From: Roseovarius gahaiensis
Lineage (GTDB): Bacteria; Pseudomonadota; Alphaproteobacteria; Rhodobacterales; Rhodobacteraceae
Length of the DNA: 64,000 bases
Assembly (NCBI RefSeq): GCF_011601345.1
Contig: NZ_JAAORB010000003.1
Coordinates: 62,001 to 126,000, forward strand
Direction: 5' to 3'
How positions within the stretch are numbered: the first letter of the stretch is position 1; every line of letters starts with the position of its first letter. The position numbers and the translations under genes are program-made. This document shows, in pieces, positions 4,526 through 40,142 of the stretch. The notes beneath the pieces are model-generated. The model saw only the letters and a program-made list of their open reading frames with translations. It made no database searches and was not told where the DNA came from.

Positions 4526-5692
4526 ATGAAAAAATCTATTGGGCTGATTGGCGGGCCGGTCATCGCTGTGGGCGCGATATGCGCGGCGGTCACGATTGTG
4601 GCCGCGCTGTATCTTTTTGGCAGGTTCGAGTCCGAACCCGTGCCGCCGGATGACGTGGCAGACTACGTGAACGACGACGCGCAAGAGTCTGACATAATTC
4701 AGGAAACTCCAGAACCAAAGGTCGCGGAATCAACCGCGCCCGATGTGCCAACTCTGCCCGGCATCAGCACGTTCCGGCTTGAGACCGATGGGCGTATGTT
4801 GGTGGCGGGACGATCACAAACCGGATGGGAAACCTCGATCCTTGTGGATGGCGAAACACTGAAAACCCTGACACCGGATGCCGGGGGGGAATTTGTCGAA
4901 TTCCTGTCGCTTGACGAAAGCGGTCAGCCGCGCGTTTTGTCACTGTCCATGCGCTCACCGGACACCGGCGAGGATGTTGTATCGTCCGATGAGGTGATTA
5001 TCGCGCCGACGCCTGCCATGCCAGACCCGGCCTCAGACCCATCCCCGGCCCCGGCAGAAACAGCCGAGGAGGTGGCAAAGTCCAGCAGTGACCAAGCCGC
5101 GCCAGACCCGACACAGGAACCGGCCACCGATACACAACCGCCGCAGCAACAGGCGGTTCTGTTGTCCGATGAAAGCGGTGTTCGGGTGTTGCAACCCCCC
5201 GCCGCGCCCGAGGCAGCCCCCGACGTCATGTCGAGTGTGGCTTTGGATGCGATCACCTATTCCGATGAGGGCGAGGTTGTCTTGTCAGGCCGCGGCAGCG
5301 GTGACGGGTTCGTGCGCGTGTATCTGGACAATCAGCCGGTGGCGTCTTCGCGGATTGCGACCGATGGTGGCTGGCGCAGCGACCTGCCGCAGGTGGAAAG
5401 CGGCGTTTACACCCTGCGCGTTGATGAGGTGGATGCCGATGGCAATGTCACATCACGGGTGGAAACCCCGTTCAAGCGTGAAGACCGCAGCTTGGTTGAC
5501 GCGCAGGAGGATGCCGCGCCAGCGGCCCGGGCCGTGACGGTGCAACCGGGCAATACCTTGTGGGAAATTTCGCGCAACCGCTATGGCGAGGGGCCAATGT
5601 ATGTGCGGATATTCGAGGCAAACCGGGATCGCATTCGCGACCCGGACCTGATTTATCCCGGCCAAGTCTTTACCGTCCCGCAAGACCAGTAA
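4526..5692 (+). CDS. LysM-domain envelope protein
   Basis: This 388-residue protein starts with a short cytoplasmic stretch and one membrane anchor (residues about 5-31). A long Pro/Ala/Glu-rich low-complexity linker follows (about residues 170-230), then a beta-rich Ig-like segment (SVALDAITYSDEGEVVLSG). A C-terminal LysM domain occupies about residues 338-386, beginning VTVQPGNTLWEISRNRYGEG and ending YPGQVFTVP. LysM binds the glycan strands of peptidoglycan, so the protein probably tethers the inner membrane to the wall. The architecture recurs in Rhodobacterales genomes without a known function. The chosen ATG follows CAGGGGGATGGC; upstream in-frame starts overlap the divergent gene. Confidence 0.82.
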   Translation: MKKSIGLIGGPVIAVGAICAAVTIVAALYLFGRFESEPVPPDDVADYVNDDAQESDIIQETPEPKVAESTAPDVPTLPGISTFRLETDGRMLVAGRSQTGWETSILVDGETLKTLTPDAGGEFVEFLSLDESGQPRVLSLSMRSPDTGEDVVSSDEVIIAPTPAMPDPASDPSPAPAETAEEVAKSSSDQAAPDPTQEPATDTQPPQQQAVLLSDESGVRVLQPPAAPEAAPDVMSSVALDAITYSDEGEVVLSGRGSGDGFVRVYLDNQPVASSRIATDGGWRSDLPQVESGVYTLRVDEVDADGNVTSRVETPFKREDRSLVDAQEDAAPAARAVTVQPGNTLWEISRNRYGEGPMYVRIFEANRDRIRDPDLIYPGQVFTVPQDQ

Positions 5693-36138: not shown

Positions 36139-37077
36139 TCAATCGTTGCGGTGTTTTTTCAATTGTTTCGCGCCACGATCCGCCAAGGGGCCGGTGCCGT
36201 TTTTCCAGCGGCGATGAATCCAGAACCACTGATCCATGTGCTGGCGCACCATCGCTTCCAGCCGGTTGTTGACCTCTTGGGTCATGGTGACCGGATCGGT
36301 GGCAGGCACCGGCTCTTCGACGATGACGCGGAAATCCAGCCCGTTTTCGGCGCGGATCGCCCAGACGGGCACCAGCGGCGCGTCGAACTTGAGCGCCATT
36401 TCCGCGGTCGCCAGTGACGACAGGGCGGGTTTGCCAAAAAAGTCCAGCGGCACGCCATCAAGCGCGTTCAGGTCGGTCAGGATCGCCAGAACGCCACCCG
36501 CGCGCAGGTGCTTGACCGTTTGCATCATACCGCGCCGGCCCTGTTGGAACATTGGCGTGCTGAGCGTTTCCATGCAGTGCGTGTAGCGGCGATTGTAAAA
36601 CGCGTTGGCCATGGGGCGATAGAACACCCCCATGTCAAACCCCTGCGCCACAAGCGCCACGCGCGCCGCATGAAAATTCCCAAAATGCCCGGTGACAAAG
36701 ATCACCGGGCGGCCTTGGGCACGGGCGGCGCGGATCAGGTCGACGCCCGGACCCTCCAGAGGAATATCGCGGGTGCGCGCGATGAAAGCATTCGGGGAAT
36801 GCAGTTCGATCATGTTGCGCCCGGCGTTGTCGGCAACAGTGCGGCTAAGTCGCCGCACCTCGGCCTTTGGCAGGTCTGGCAGGACATGGGCGAGATTGTC
36901 GCGCACGCGGCGGTCATACCCGGCGATCGGGGCTATGATCCGCGAGGTGATCCAGCCCATCACCGGCACACGCCAGCGGTAGGGCAGCCGCCGTGCCAAT
37001 GCGATCGGCGCATAGATGGCCAGCCCAAGGGCGGTGTCACGCGCGCGGTCAAGAAAACTTGGGCTTGGGTCTGTCAT
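36139..37077 (-). CDS. LpxL/HtrB-like lysophospholipid acyltransferase
   Basis: This 312-residue protein of the lipid A biosynthesis acyltransferase family has an N-terminal hydrophobic segment (TALGLAIYAPIALARRLPY), a central acyltransferase core and FYNRRYTHCMETL. The usual HX4(D/E) catalytic motif reads HFGNFH here: the acidic residue is His, encoded by CAT at 36670-36672. One base change would turn an Asp codon (GAT) into this. It may transfer a secondary acyl chain to lipid A or acylate another lysolipid. Start 37077 (MTDPSPSF) is chosen over 37134. It is convergent with hemF. Confidence 0.83.
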   Translation of the reverse strand: MTDPSPSFLDRARDTALGLAIYAPIALARRLPYRWRVPVMGWITSRIIAPIAGYDRRVRDNLAHVLPDLPKAEVRRLSRTVADNAGRNMIELHSPNAFIARTRDIPLEGPGVDLIRAARAQGRPVIFVTGHFGNFHAARVALVAQGFDMGVFYRPMANAFYNRRYTHCMETLSTPMFQQGRRGMMQTVKHLRAGGVLAILTDLNALDGVPLDFFGKPALSSLATAEMALKFDAPLVPVWAIRAENGLDFRVIVEEPVPATDPVTMTQEVNNRLEAMVRQHMDQWFWIHRRWKNGTGPLADRGAKQLKKHRND

Positions 37078-37150
37078 CGGGGGTGGCCTTTGGAGTCTTG
37101 CTGCGCAGACATACGCCCTGCGCAACATGATCACAAGACCAAGGGCGGCG

Positions 37151-37792
37151 TCATGGGGTGCGGGGCAGACCGGTGCCGATCATGCTGTCGCGGGTCACAA
37201 GCGCGGCAAGCTGGTCTTGTGTCATGCCGTCGGTTCCAGCGGGCCGGGCGGATAAAACGATATAGCGCATGTCGGCGGTACTGTCATGCACGCGGATGGT
37301 GGTGCTGTCGGGCAGGTCCACCCCAAACTCGCGCAGTACGGCCCGTGGCTCGCGCACGGCGCGCGCGCGGTATTCGCGCGTTTTGTACCAATCCGGCGGC
37401 AGACCCAGCAGGTTGCGTGGATAGCATGAACACAGTGTACAGACGATCATGTTATGGGTGTCCGGCGTGTTTTCGACCGCGATCAGATGCAGCGGGCCGA
37501 TATCGAACCCCATATCCCGGCACGCTTGCGACGCATTGTCCAACAGGCGCGCCTTGAAGGCCGGATCGGTCCATGCGCGGGCCACGACCGCCGCGCCATT
37601 GGCGGGGCTGCGGGCATCCATCGCGTCGATCTGCGCGGCCACCGCGGCGGCATCAAGGTGGCCCTTTTCGATCAAAAGCTCGCGCACCGCGATTTCCATG
37701 CGCTGCCAATAGCTGAGCGGTGTGTCGTTATCGGCGCGGTAGGGATGGCCCGAGGGGCTCAGCCCGGAATGGTCGTGGTGATCGTGGGGCAT
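37151..37792 (-). CDS. Nitrile hydratase alpha-like (or thiocyanate hydrolase gamma-like) metal subunit
   Basis: This 213-residue subunit carries the metal-binding claw VCTLCSCYPRNLLGLPPDWY, with Cys118, Cys121 and Cys123. The Thr in CTLCSC marks the cobalt type; iron enzymes have Ser. The end GTDGMTQDQLAALVTRDSMI is typical. The His-rich N-terminus (HDHHDH) resembles that of thiocyanate hydrolase gamma. Nitrile hydratase turns nitriles into amides; thiocyanate hydrolase yields COS and ammonia. It is the last of three tightly packed minus-strand genes, beginning 3 bases after the beta C-terminal gene stops. Confidence 0.88.
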   Translation of the reverse strand: MPHDHHDHSGLSPSGHPYRADNDTPLSYWQRMEIAVRELLIEKGHLDAAAVAAQIDAMDARSPANGAAVVARAWTDPAFKARLLDNASQACRDMGFDIGPLHLIAVENTPDTHNMIVCTLCSCYPRNLLGLPPDWYKTREYRARAVREPRAVLREFGVDLPDSTTIRVHDSTADMRYIVLSARPAGTDGMTQDQLAALVTRDSMIGTGLPRTP

Positions 37793-37795
37793 GTG

Positions 37796-38059
37796 TCAGA
37801 CCTTCTCCAGCCAATGGCCATAGATTTCGGCATCCAGCGTATCGTTGGGGTGTTCGGCGGCGGTGCCCCAAAGCTCGTCCATGGTAAATCGCACGCGGTA
37901 CAACGGTTGGCTGGCAGCGGGCAGGCCATAGGCCAGTTGCTCGGGGTTGGGGAAAGGGCCAAGCGCGCGTTCGATCACGCCGGTTTTGCCGCGCAGATAG
38001 GCCGGGATGCGTACATGGCCCGGCGGCATGATGGTTTTGACGCGCACACGCTCAGGCAT
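37796..38059 (-). CDS. Nitrile hydratase beta C-terminal domain gene (thiocyanate hydrolase alpha-like)
   Basis: This 87-residue protein covers only the SH3-like barrel half of the nitrile hydratase beta subunit. The conserved core is GHVRIPAYLRGKTGVIE (G-H-x-R-x-P-x-Y-x-R-G), whose arginines contact the oxidised claw cysteines in known structures, followed by PLYRVRFTMDELWG. The start ATG overlaps the end of the preceding gene by 8 bases. The missing N-terminal half is in that gene. In thiocyanate hydrolase this domain is a separate alpha subunit, in the same gene order. Confidence 0.83.
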   Translation of the reverse strand: MPERVRVKTIMPPGHVRIPAYLRGKTGVIERALGPFPNPEQLAYGLPAASQPLYRVRFTMDELWGTAAEHPNDTLDAEIYGHWLEKV

Positions 38060-38399
38060 CGTGGGCCTTTTGGGCGGCGGCATAGGTGGGGCCGCGTTCG
38101 GCGATCTGTTCCATCCGTTCGCCCAACTCAGACGGGGTGTAGGCCCCGTATTCGAGCAGGTTTTGATTGATCGCGGCAATCCAGCGTTCGTAATAAGACA
38201 TGGTTTCAAACGCGTCTTCGCCCATATCTTCAAGCGCGCGGCGCAGGCCGTCGACGGTAAAAAACCCTTTGGCACCGCAAAGCACCATCAAGGCATCGAC
38301 ACGCTTTTCCCAAAGCGCGAAATCATGGTCATCGGCACAAACCGGGCCAGCATCCTGCCCGCCCATATCGTGCCAGCGGCGTCCATCGGTATCCATCAT
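38052..38399 (-). CDS. Nitrile hydratase beta N-terminal domain gene (thiocyanate hydrolase beta-like or accessory)
   Basis: This 115-residue protein matches the helical N-terminal half of nitrile hydratase beta: HDMGGQDAGPV near the start, FTVDGLRRALEDMGEDAF and MSYYERWIAAINQNLLEYG. It could also be read as the related accessory (metallochaperone) protein. The following gene, however, supplies exactly the missing C-terminal half, so a split beta chain is preferred. It is first of the three-gene operon. A frameshift of one ancestral beta gene is possible, but the overlapping ATG makes a functional split plausible. Confidence 0.78.
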   Translation of the reverse strand: MMDTDGRRWHDMGGQDAGPVCADDHDFALWEKRVDALMVLCGAKGFFTVDGLRRALEDMGEDAFETMSYYERWIAAINQNLLEYGAYTPSELGERMEQIAERGPTYAAAQKAHDA

Positions 38400-38438: not shown

Positions 38439-38957
38439 TCAGTAAAAGCGCAGATCACCCAAAGCCAGATCGGCGGTAAACGCACGACCGATGGCTACAA
38501 GGCCGACCCGGCGCAGGCTGGATAGATCCAGCGGGGCGGTCAAACGGTGTGGCGTGAAATCCGAGAACGGCAGTTTTATGGTCGTCCAGTGGCCCGGCGC
38601 GGTAAATTCCGCCCGGTAGGATTGCCACGGTCGCGTGACATCGGCGGTGCGCAGGTGGATATTGTAGCGTTGATCGTTGCCCAGAATGTCCAGCGCCAGC
38701 CCGGTCTGGCCGCTGGCATCGACACCGCAGCCATCCGGGCGCAGATCCAGTGCCATTTGCAAGAATCCACCGTCGTTCTCAAGGCTGACCGTGCCTGTCA
38801 TGCGCAGGGCGGGGCGGCCTTCCACCGTGCAATGGGTCAGCGAACCGTCCGAGACCCCGCCCATGACCCGATCCGAGACCAATTCCCATGTGGTGCCACA
38901 GGTGGTTTGGCCTGCGGGCAGTGAAAGATTGTCTATGATGGGGGATGATGTGGACAT
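38439..38957 (-). CDS. CIA30-family protein
   Basis: This 172-residue beta-sandwich protein of the complex I intermediate-associated protein 30 family has the segments WELVSDRVMGGVSDGSLTH, FLQMALDLRPDG, LALDILGNDQRYNIHLRTAD and TIKLPFSDFTPH. CIA30 homologues assist complex I assembly in mitochondria; bacterial members are uncharacterised and look like carbohydrate-binding jelly-roll domains. No signal peptide is visible. It lies 40 bases upstream of the nitrile hydratase-like operon on the same strand, so co-transcription is possible. Confidence 0.85.
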   Translation of the reverse strand: MSTSSPIIDNLSLPAGQTTCGTTWELVSDRVMGGVSDGSLTHCTVEGRPALRMTGTVSLENDGGFLQMALDLRPDGCGVDASGQTGLALDILGNDQRYNIHLRTADVTRPWQSYRAEFTAPGHWTTIKLPFSDFTPHRLTAPLDLSSLRRVGLVAIGRAFTADLALGDLRFY

Positions 38958-39062: not shown

Positions 39063-40142
39063 TCATTCGTCGCCGTCCTCCTCTTCCTCTTGGCTGACGA
39101 GGGTAATCTCGCCGCGGGCTTCGAGCGTGCGGATGGCGTTGACGATCTCGGTCATCGCTGTTTCGCCGTCGCGGGGTTTGACGCGGCCCTGCTCTTCGAT
39201 TTCTTCGCGCAGCGCATCGGCCATCCGGGTCGAGATGTTGCCAAGAATGAACTCGGCCGCCGGGGCCAGATCACCGCCCTGATCGCTGGCCGAGGCAAGC
39301 GCGGTGACAAGAACGGCCTGATCCACCTCGCGGATGATCTTGGGAATATCGACGGCGGCGACACGTGCAGGGATATGAACAAAGGTGAAAATCGCCTTGC
39401 GGACCAGTTTGGCAAAGTCCTGATCGGTTTCATCCAGCCCGGTCAGCACGTCGTCACGCGTGGTGGCGGCGGAAAAGTTCAGGATCGCGCCGACGCGTTC
39501 CACCGGGCCTTCATCAAAGGCGGTTTCGGGCACGTCGTGCAGTTGCGCGGCCAGTGCCAGCCCAATGCGGTCGACCGCTTGGGGGGTGACCGCGCCAGTT
39601 TGCGAGACGGCATAGGTGATGCGCCGGGCCTGATCGCCGGGCAGGCGGCCCAAAAGTTCGGCGGCGCGGGCGACATCAAGCTTGGACAGCATGACGGCGG
39701 CGACCTCGGTGCTTTCGCGGGTGATCATGTTCATAAGGTCGTCGGTCGCGGCGGCGCGCACCTGTTCCCAAGGCTCACCGAATTGGCGCACGCCAGCCTC
39801 TTTGCGCAGGCGGGCGGCGGTTTGCGGGCTGATCCGGCCATCAAGCGCATTCAGCGCGCCGGCCACGCCGCGCGGAAATGTCAGGCCCATCGCCTCAAGC
39901 TCGGCGGCGAATTCGGCCACCACATCGGCGAGCGTGCTGCGATCCACATAGCGCATCGACCCCATCTGCGTGGTCAATTGCGCCTGAAGCTGTTCCGGCA
40001 GATCGGTCAGCGGAATTTCGGCACCTTCGTTCAGCAAGAAGCGCACGATGATCGCCGCCTTCTGACGACGTGACAAGCGTGCACTGGCCGGGCCGGGGCT
40101 GCGGCTTGGTGTGATCTGTGCAAGCGGTCTTGAAGTGCTCAT
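39063..40142 (-). CDS. fliG: FliG-like flagellar motor switch protein
   Basis: This 359-residue protein resembles FliG, the rotor protein that couples the MotAB stator to rotation. Its N-terminal part begins LSRRQKAAIIVRFLLNEGAE, the usual FliG opening. The C-terminal part has DDVLTGLDETDQDFAKLVRKA (charged rotor helix with the EHPQ-region equivalent before it), FTFVHIP and the terminal FILGNISTRMADALREEIEE. The overall length is close to normal (about 330-360). No other flagellar gene is present in the window, so it is an orphan locus or a paralogue of a cluster copy. A long plus-strand frame antisense to it is a shadow. Confidence 0.85.
   Translation of the reverse strand: MSTSRPLAQITPSRSPGPASARLSRRQKAAIIVRFLLNEGAEIPLTDLPEQLQAQLTTQMGSMRYVDRSTLADVVAEFAAELEAMGLTFPRGVAGALNALDGRISPQTAARLRKEAGVRQFGEPWEQVRAAATDDLMNMITRESTEVAAVMLSKLDVARAAELLGRLPGDQARRITYAVSQTGAVTPQAVDRIGLALAAQLHDVPETAFDEGPVERVGAILNFSAATTRDDVLTGLDETDQDFAKLVRKAIFTFVHIPARVAAVDIPKIIREVDQAVLVTALASASDQGGDLAPAAEFILGNISTRMADALREEIEEQGRVKPRDGETAMTEIVNAIRTLEARGEITLVSQEEEEDGDE

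Follow-up and report, generated by a model that had tools for sequence, protein, structure and literature searches.

A conserved three-gene operon of Roseovarius gahaiensis most likely encodes a three-subunit cobalt nitrile hydratase related to thiocyanate hydrolase

The window considered here, a whole stretch of 64,000 nucleotides from Roseovarius gahaiensis (Rhodobacteraceae; contig NZ_JAAORB010000003.1, positions 62,001 to 126,000), carries three minus-strand genes for the two halves of a nitrile hydratase (NHase) beta chain, called betaN and betaC below, and for a cobalt-type alpha chain. Most likely this is a real, widely conserved three-subunit cobalt NHase, belonging to a type that has been described before but received little study; it is common among marine roseobacters and has thiocyanate hydrolase (SCNase) as a relative. 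More precisely, we give a probability of roughly 0.8 to a three-subunit cobalt NHase without a dedicated activator, of the type known from Streptomyces canus (genes anhD-anhE-anhA). The reading builds on the architecture of the operon, its family assignment, its conservation in relatives, its clade in the trees and the absence of any activator recognized by the model TIGR03889.

Open reading frames (ORFs), Pfam and NCBIfam bear out the coordinates and the description that the initial annotation gave for the three close-packed genes. The genes, and the residues expected around the metal, are the following (3qxe is a solved two-subunit NHase of the cobalt type):

38399-38052, minus strand: betaN gene (AnhD-like), 115 aa, N-terminal half of the NHase beta chain (PF21006 and TIGR03888)
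38059-37796, minus strand: betaC gene (AnhE-like), 87 aa, C-terminal SH3-like half of the NHase beta chain (PF02211 and TIGR03888)
37792-37151, minus strand: alpha gene (AnhA-like), 213 aa, cobalt-type NHase alpha chain (PF02979 and TIGR01323)
37424-37441, minus strand: metal claw CTLCSC, alpha residues 118-123
38241-38243, minus strand: betaN Arg53, aligned with 3qxe beta Arg52; Arg in 230/230 betaN domains
38229-38231, minus strand: betaN Glu57, aligned with 3qxe beta Glu56; Glu in 222/222 non-SCNase rows, Asn in 8/8 SCNase
38015-38017, minus strand: betaC His15, aligned with 3qxe beta His147; His in 221/222 non-SCNase rows, Tyr in 9/9 SCNase

The ATG of betaC overlaps the stop of betaN, with 8 nt shared, and alpha starts 3 nt past the betaC stop; these overlaps suggest that betaN, betaC and alpha are co-transcribed as one operon. 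Scans for promoters and terminators at the operon gave results at about shuffle level. The Pfam matches are strong for all three products (NHase_beta_N, 2.3e-20; NHase_beta_C, 1.6e-22; NHase_alpha, 8.4e-81), and a PF02979 search of the genome found no second alpha chain. Against TIGR03888, the model of the full-length beta chain with 226 positions, betaN covers positions 3-110 and betaC 143-226, so that the break sits in the linker between the halves. Taken alone the halves give 59.4 and 73.7 bits, both below the cut-off of 152.2 for a two-subunit beta chain. An AlphaFold2 run on betaN without an alignment had a mean predicted local distance difference test score of 56 and was not used.

The division of the beta chain is kept in relatives. 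From at least 511 named genome contigs encoding a relative, 80 loci of 74-88% identity were kept (two of them, L097 and L098, on one contig), and the titles give Roseovarius, Litoreibacter, Yoonia, Jannaschia, Thalassovita and other Rhodobacteraceae or Roseobacteraceae. Of the 80, 78 show betaN, betaC and alpha as three ORFs in this order; in the other two, L032 and L107, the contig stops before betaN. In a sample of 394 genomes from the window's family (393 genera), betaN was present at 59% identity or more in 60, one of which (G171) has an in-frame stop. There were betaN matches in 188 of these genomes altogether, and among the matches listed beyond the 60, one reached 46% and the others 44% at most; most of the latter lie in frames longer than 220 aa, which fits a fused beta chain, and three in frames of 115-130 aa. 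Any match to PF02979 was obtained in 202 of the 394 genomes. Comparison of the three genes with four relatives gave ratios of nonsynonymous to synonymous substitution (dN/dS) of 0.09-0.27, rough values since several dS exceed 1, and this shows apparent purifying selection on all three genes.

The initial annotation had pointed out that the split would be a mutation or a sequencing error if only this sequence were broken. That a broken two-subunit NHase, whether as a pseudogene or as an assembly error, underlies the operon now has a practically negligible probability: the suspicion is refuted by the 78 named relatives and the 60 family genomes with the same split, along with the purifying selection. 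Nothing in favor of a broken chain was found in these data. A 2012 study is of interest here, the accessible part of which states that the beta chain of Roseobacter strain CCS2 "appeared truncated" and was therefore replaced by that of another strain (PMC3323583); the CCS2 chain may itself be such a split gene. A programmed frameshift that would yield one fused beta chain is likewise unlikely, as betaC is offset from the betaN frame by +1 in 66 of 82 loci and by +2 in the other 16, and the gap between the two genes is also variable among relatives. Taken together, conservation, dN/dS and the varying offset indicate that neither mutation nor a conserved frameshift accounts for the split.

For a wider comparison 231 loci were sorted into classes with profiles built from the loci themselves; eight duplicates, the weak loci L200-L202 and the cut loci L032 and L107 were left out. 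Loci had entered the sets because they were best hits or had short frames, and the counts thus express association, not prevalence. A further N-type ORF within 3.5 kb was taken as activator-like:

alpha, fused beta: 80 loci, activator-like ORF in 76
alpha, betaN, betaC: 17 loci, further N-type domain in 17/17, within a longer protein in L130, L140 and L242
betaN, betaC, alpha, Rhodobacteraceae: 82 loci, activator-like ORF in 0
betaN, betaC, alpha, other genomes and plasmids: 39 loci, extra N-type ORF in 1 (L223)
betaC, alpha, betaN, plasmids of Agrobacterium, Polymorphobacter and Azospirillum: 3 loci, activator-like ORF in 0
fused beta, alpha, activator: 1 locus
SCNase: 9 loci, N-type ORF after the gamma gene in 6; two of the other three are cut off

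The earlier observation that no activator gene is adjacent is thus right, and it is true of all 82 Rhodobacteraceae loci of the window's order. A search of the window's whole genome with the activator model TIGR03889 yielded a single match, of 14.5 bits, to betaN itself, whereas the score was 101 bits in two canonical genomes of the family; of two further genomes carrying this operon, one gave 12.0 bits and the other nothing. The possibility that betaN is a standard activator instead of a beta half was rejected, given that NCBIfam reports TIGR03888 for it and not TIGR03889, and that a tree of N-type domains places it away from the canonical activators.

Several loci deserve mention in their own right. 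The second split form, alpha, betaN, betaC with a separate activator-like ORF, lies on the fused-beta side of the trees described below (L116, L129, L138, L139, L152, L179, L191, L192, L193, L196, L203, L205, L239 and L243), and in L130, L140 (the same place as L241) and L242 the three genes are followed by another protein, which has both N- and C-type beta domains. In L223, the only such case among the 39 loci outside the Rhodobacteraceae, the extra betaN-like ORF (5049-5312, minus strand) is situated about 1.3 kb upstream of the betaN of the three-gene operon. Plasmid loci L177, L178 and L180 have the order betaC-alpha-betaN and plasmid locus L174 the order betaN-betaC-alpha. Three of these four are annotated, and all three have a cobalt-type transporter (CbtAB or HoxN/NixA) after the NHase genes; an aquaporin is also present in two of them, and DUF302 likewise in two. 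Loci L200, L201 and L202 hold short alpha-like stretches of 20-27 bits against the SCNase gamma model; perhaps, as a guess, these are NHLP-type leader proteins.

As to the family, the initial annotation had left a choice between a SCNase, a NHase with a divided beta chain and an intermediate. The alpha chain scores 261.6 bits against the NHase alpha model TIGR01323 (cut-off 249.85) and 192.3 bits against the SCNase gamma model TIGR03887 (cut-off 291.45), and its best solved relative is the NHase alpha chain 2dpp with 223.5 bits, compared to 154.9 for the SCNase gamma chain of 2dd4, a structure which we take to be from Thiobacillus thioparus. The option of a NHase with a divided beta chain is supported, betaN and betaC being the beta halves. 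In a sample of 398 genomes from the phylum, none exceeds the cut-off of TIGR03887. Nine of 369 genomes from another class of the phylum do so, with 381.6-396.8 bits; judged by its content, this class (that of G884) is probably Gammaproteobacteria. For L189, one of the nine, the scores against the solved SCNase chains are 421 (gamma), 131 (alpha) and 158 bits (beta), and for this reason the nine loci were taken as SCNase.

The alternative that the operon is itself a SCNase, its chains being SCNase beta, alpha and gamma and its reaction the conversion of thiocyanate to carbonyl sulfide and ammonia, has real points of contact with the data. The order of a split beta followed by alpha or gamma, which had been recognized as that of SCNase, is indeed the order of the operon, both share the sequence CTLCSCYPR, and both stand on the same side of the trees. 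The residues and motifs speak otherwise. The three Cys and the Ser of the claw are kept in 231/231 loci, as is the Arg aligned with 3qxe beta Arg149, and all 82 Rhodobacteraceae betaN-betaC-alpha loci have the claw Cys, the betaN Arg, Glu and Tyr pair, and the betaC His and Arg. The Glu and His of NHases are replaced in SCNase by Asn and Tyr (the SCNase betaN counts being of eight, since the betaN of L184 lies off its contig). Between the AW motif and the claw the spacing is 57 in 9/9 SCNase, which have an insertion before the claw, and 45 in all 79 measured of the 82 Rhodobacteraceae loci; in fused-beta loci it is mostly 46 (71 loci), with a few at 41-67. The SCNase chains also bear N-terminal extensions, their N- and C-type domains starting at residues 47 and 41 compared with 9-10 in betaN and 3 in betaC of the window, and most SCNase loci have the downstream activator-like ORF that the window's operon lacks. 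The His-rich alpha N-terminus MPHDHHDH, earlier regarded as a SCNase-like mark, does not serve as one, for HDHHHD is also found in the cobalt-type NHase alpha chain of 3qxe.

The trees agree with this assignment. In an alpha tree of 104 rows, a branch with support 99 separates 42 fused-beta and alpha-betaN-betaC rows, including the solved NHases 3qxe, 1ugp and 1v29, from 62 others, among which are every betaN-betaC-alpha and betaC-alpha-betaN row and SCNase; the long or divergent rows L163, L176, L218 and L234 attach close to this branch. A three-part tree of 96 rows, built without the long-branch rows L176, L234, L226 and L163 and without the four structure-derived rows, is divided in the same way (39 vs. 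57 rows, 100/100). Here the window falls within a 13-row Rhodobacteraceae clade (100/100) and the six SCNases form a clade of their own (100/100) on a branch of length 2.21, so that window and SCNase are in separate clades. Approximately unbiased (AU) tests rejected neither a SCNase position beside the window's clade (p = 0.301), which would make the two one group, nor one outside all others of the three-gene side (p = 0.413), and a single fused-beta clade was not rejected either (p = 0.155). All in all, that the operon is a SCNase seems very improbable; judged from its sequence it is not one, though it stands on the SCNase side of the family. The notion of an intermediate holds insofar as the sampled betaN-betaC-alpha operons and SCNase are on one side of the trees and have CYPR in common, but the window is not established as a link between the two.

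The motifs divide along the same lines. The residue after CTLCSCYP is Arg in 82/82 Rhodobacteraceae and 36/39 other betaN-betaC-alpha loci, in 3/3 betaC-alpha-betaN loci and in 9/9 SCNase; it is Trp in 74/80 fused-beta and 17/17 alpha-betaN-betaC loci. A Gln-Gly-Glu-type motif before the claw occurs in 60/80 fused-beta and 15/17 alpha-betaN-betaC loci, and in 0/124 of the other non-SCNase three-gene loci and 0/9 SCNase. Two-subunit cobalt-type NHases (3qxe, 1ugp, 1v29) thus resemble the window in the cobalt claw and in the Arg, Glu, His and Arg positions of the beta chain, and differ in the fused beta, the CYPW sequence, the separate activator in most loci and their place across the support-99 branch.

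In NHases generally, a nitrile bound to the metal is hydrated to the amide. In the enzyme of the window, betaN and betaC would stand in for the beta chain of other NHases at the CTLCSC cobalt center of alpha, clasping alpha like two beta halves, with Arg, Glu and His residues surrounding the cobalt center. A (betaN-betaC-alpha)2 hexamer is probable by comparison with the S. canus NHase, and nitrile hydration by the three-chain complex is most likely its activity on the same grounds. Free betaN, as a homologue of NHase activators, would probably also form a betaN2-alpha complex in which alpha takes up cobalt, and the loaded alpha would then be swapped from this complex into the apoenzyme; betaN would thus probably double as the cobalt-loading chaperone, by analogy with S. 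canus.

The S. canus NHase is the closest precedent for the operon. According to the accessible part of its description (PMC7329996), the genes are anhD-anhE-anhA with no activator recognized in the genome, the enzyme is an AnhD2E2A2 assembly accompanied by an AnhD2A complex, alpha takes up cobalt directly when conditions are reducing, and the self-subunit-swapping chaperone is reported to be AnhD and not AnhE. So far as this source goes, it shares with the window the order betaN-betaC-alpha, AnhD and AnhE as beta halves, the cobalt claw and the lack of a recognized activator. It differs in coming from an actinomycete and in having been tested on acetamiprid, and the likeness is one of description and gene order, not of sequence. 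AnhD-Glu56 and AnhE-His21 are named important in the part of a review available to us (PMC13243292); we infer that betaN Glu57 and betaC His15, matched through 3qxe and not through the S. canus sequence, are their counterparts. The toyocamycin NHase of Streptomyces rimosus is likewise a three-chain enzyme, an (alpha-beta-gamma)2 hexamer whose subunits measure 21.2, 10 and 11.4 kDa (PMC8574189, seen in part), and is likened to the window by this description only; as a difference, its alpha chain alone is reported to be active, as told in the part of PMC7329996 cited above. The accessible portion of another report proposes an auxin route via indole-3-acetonitrile for the roseobacter Nautella (PMC3230580). 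We do not propose indole-3-acetonitrile as a substrate here, the S. canus NHase being almost inactive on it according to the same part of PMC7329996.

A number of points weigh against a NHase of the S. canus type without a dedicated activator. TIGR03889 finds nothing in two SCNase genomes that do have an activator-like ORF, and as the model misses divergent activators, a divergent one may lie elsewhere in the window's genome. The seven operon neighbors scanned with Pfam include no amidase or cobalt transporter, unlike those of some plasmid relatives. The kinship with the S. canus and toyocamycin NHases is drawn from descriptions and not from sequences, and L174, a locus on a Streptomyces plasmid, shares the window's side of the tree without being next to the window. 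The proposed enzyme activity itself is read from sequence only, and as the Gln-Gly-Glu-type motif is absent from the window's class, catalytic details may differ from those of fused-beta NHases.

Some of these points would also suit an enzyme of the NHase fold that has a special, so far undescribed substrate, such as one metabolic nitrile or another cyano compound, which in practice would be neither a general NHase nor a SCNase. The Rhodobacteraceae clade with full support, the loss of both the Gln-type motif and the Trp that follows CYP, the position beside chromosomal housekeeping genes in many relatives and the lack of an amidase among the scanned neighbors of the window are all consistent with it. 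A precedent for a single-metabolite enzyme is the toyocamycin NHase, which has its role in an antibiotic pathway and serves one metabolite. Against it, the residues named important in the S. canus NHase, as far as the part of the review available to us tells, are apparently kept, and there is no pointer to any particular substrate. We regard such a specialized enzyme as unlikely, and the three-subunit cobalt NHase remains the preferred reading.

The surroundings of the operon were compared by tblastn of the window neighbors against 81 Rhodobacteraceae loci, the flanks of which differ in length. Downstream, about 20-80 nt after alpha, starts a gene for a lipid A-type acyltransferase (36139-37134, minus strand; PF03279); its homologue is found in 57/81 loci, in 42 of them directly downstream on the same strand, and its transcription together with the operon is possible. 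Just upstream of betaN is a CIA30-domain protein (38439-38957, minus strand; PF08547, no NCBIfam match), which looks like a local insertion because a homologue occurs in only 1/81 related loci. Further upstream is a FliG-like protein (39063-40142, minus strand), which scores 133 bits, below the curated FliG cut-off of 226.7, and has homologues in 47/81 loci; the other scanned neighbors in the window include no flagellar genes. Further neighbor matches are purB (31/81 loci), hemF (22) and a short-chain dehydrogenase/reductase (22). A large neighbor cluster (50 + 23 loci) on the opposite strand over the operon was rejected as a shadow ORF.

Ten representatives of common neighbor clusters showed no amidase and no metal transporter in a Pfam scan. 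Elsewhere in the genome there are four amidase-family matches, a NicO-type transporter match in one frame and three CobW-family matches, none adjoining the operon, and no match to CbtA was found in the genome. The 75 same-strand neighbors of other three-gene loci belong to mixed families; of the 77 in all, the 25 listed include NicO and DUF302 with two occurrences each.

The trees also invite a reading of how the superfamily arose, which we put forward as a tentative one with the odds against it. According to it, such operons would keep an early state with three chains, in which betaN is both subunit and cobalt chaperone. Activators would have arisen twice by duplication of betaN, once in the line of fused-beta NHases and once in that of SCNase; the usual beta chain would be a later betaN-betaC fusion and SCNase a specialized three-gene offshoot. 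The presence of split genes on both sides of the main branch in the three-part tree supports the early three-chain state. Two origins of activators are suggested by a second, N-domain tree of 87 rows (the long branches L206 and L207 and the A-N-C-N locus L179 left out), in which the 24 activators from canonical and alpha-betaN-betaC loci are united in a single clade (100/100) on the canonical betaN side, and the five from SCNase loci join SCNase betaN (99/91) on the side of the three-gene operons. This reading has its limits in that the trees are unrooted, the N-domain tree has 92 columns, the SCNase branches are long and a single origin of all activators is not rejected by the AU test (p = 0.112).

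In our literature search, three-subunit NHases were described from two organisms only, both Streptomyces. The betaN-betaC-alpha type forms a large group among marine roseobacters and elsewhere in their class, and further examples sit on a Streptomyces plasmid and on a cyanobacterial one. The split form calls for care in annotation, as plasmid records call the halves "SH3-like domain-containing protein" or simply "nitrile hydratase". These operons offer many natural systems for the study of cobalt loading without a dedicated activator, of the origin of SCNase and of the beta chain as a fusion.

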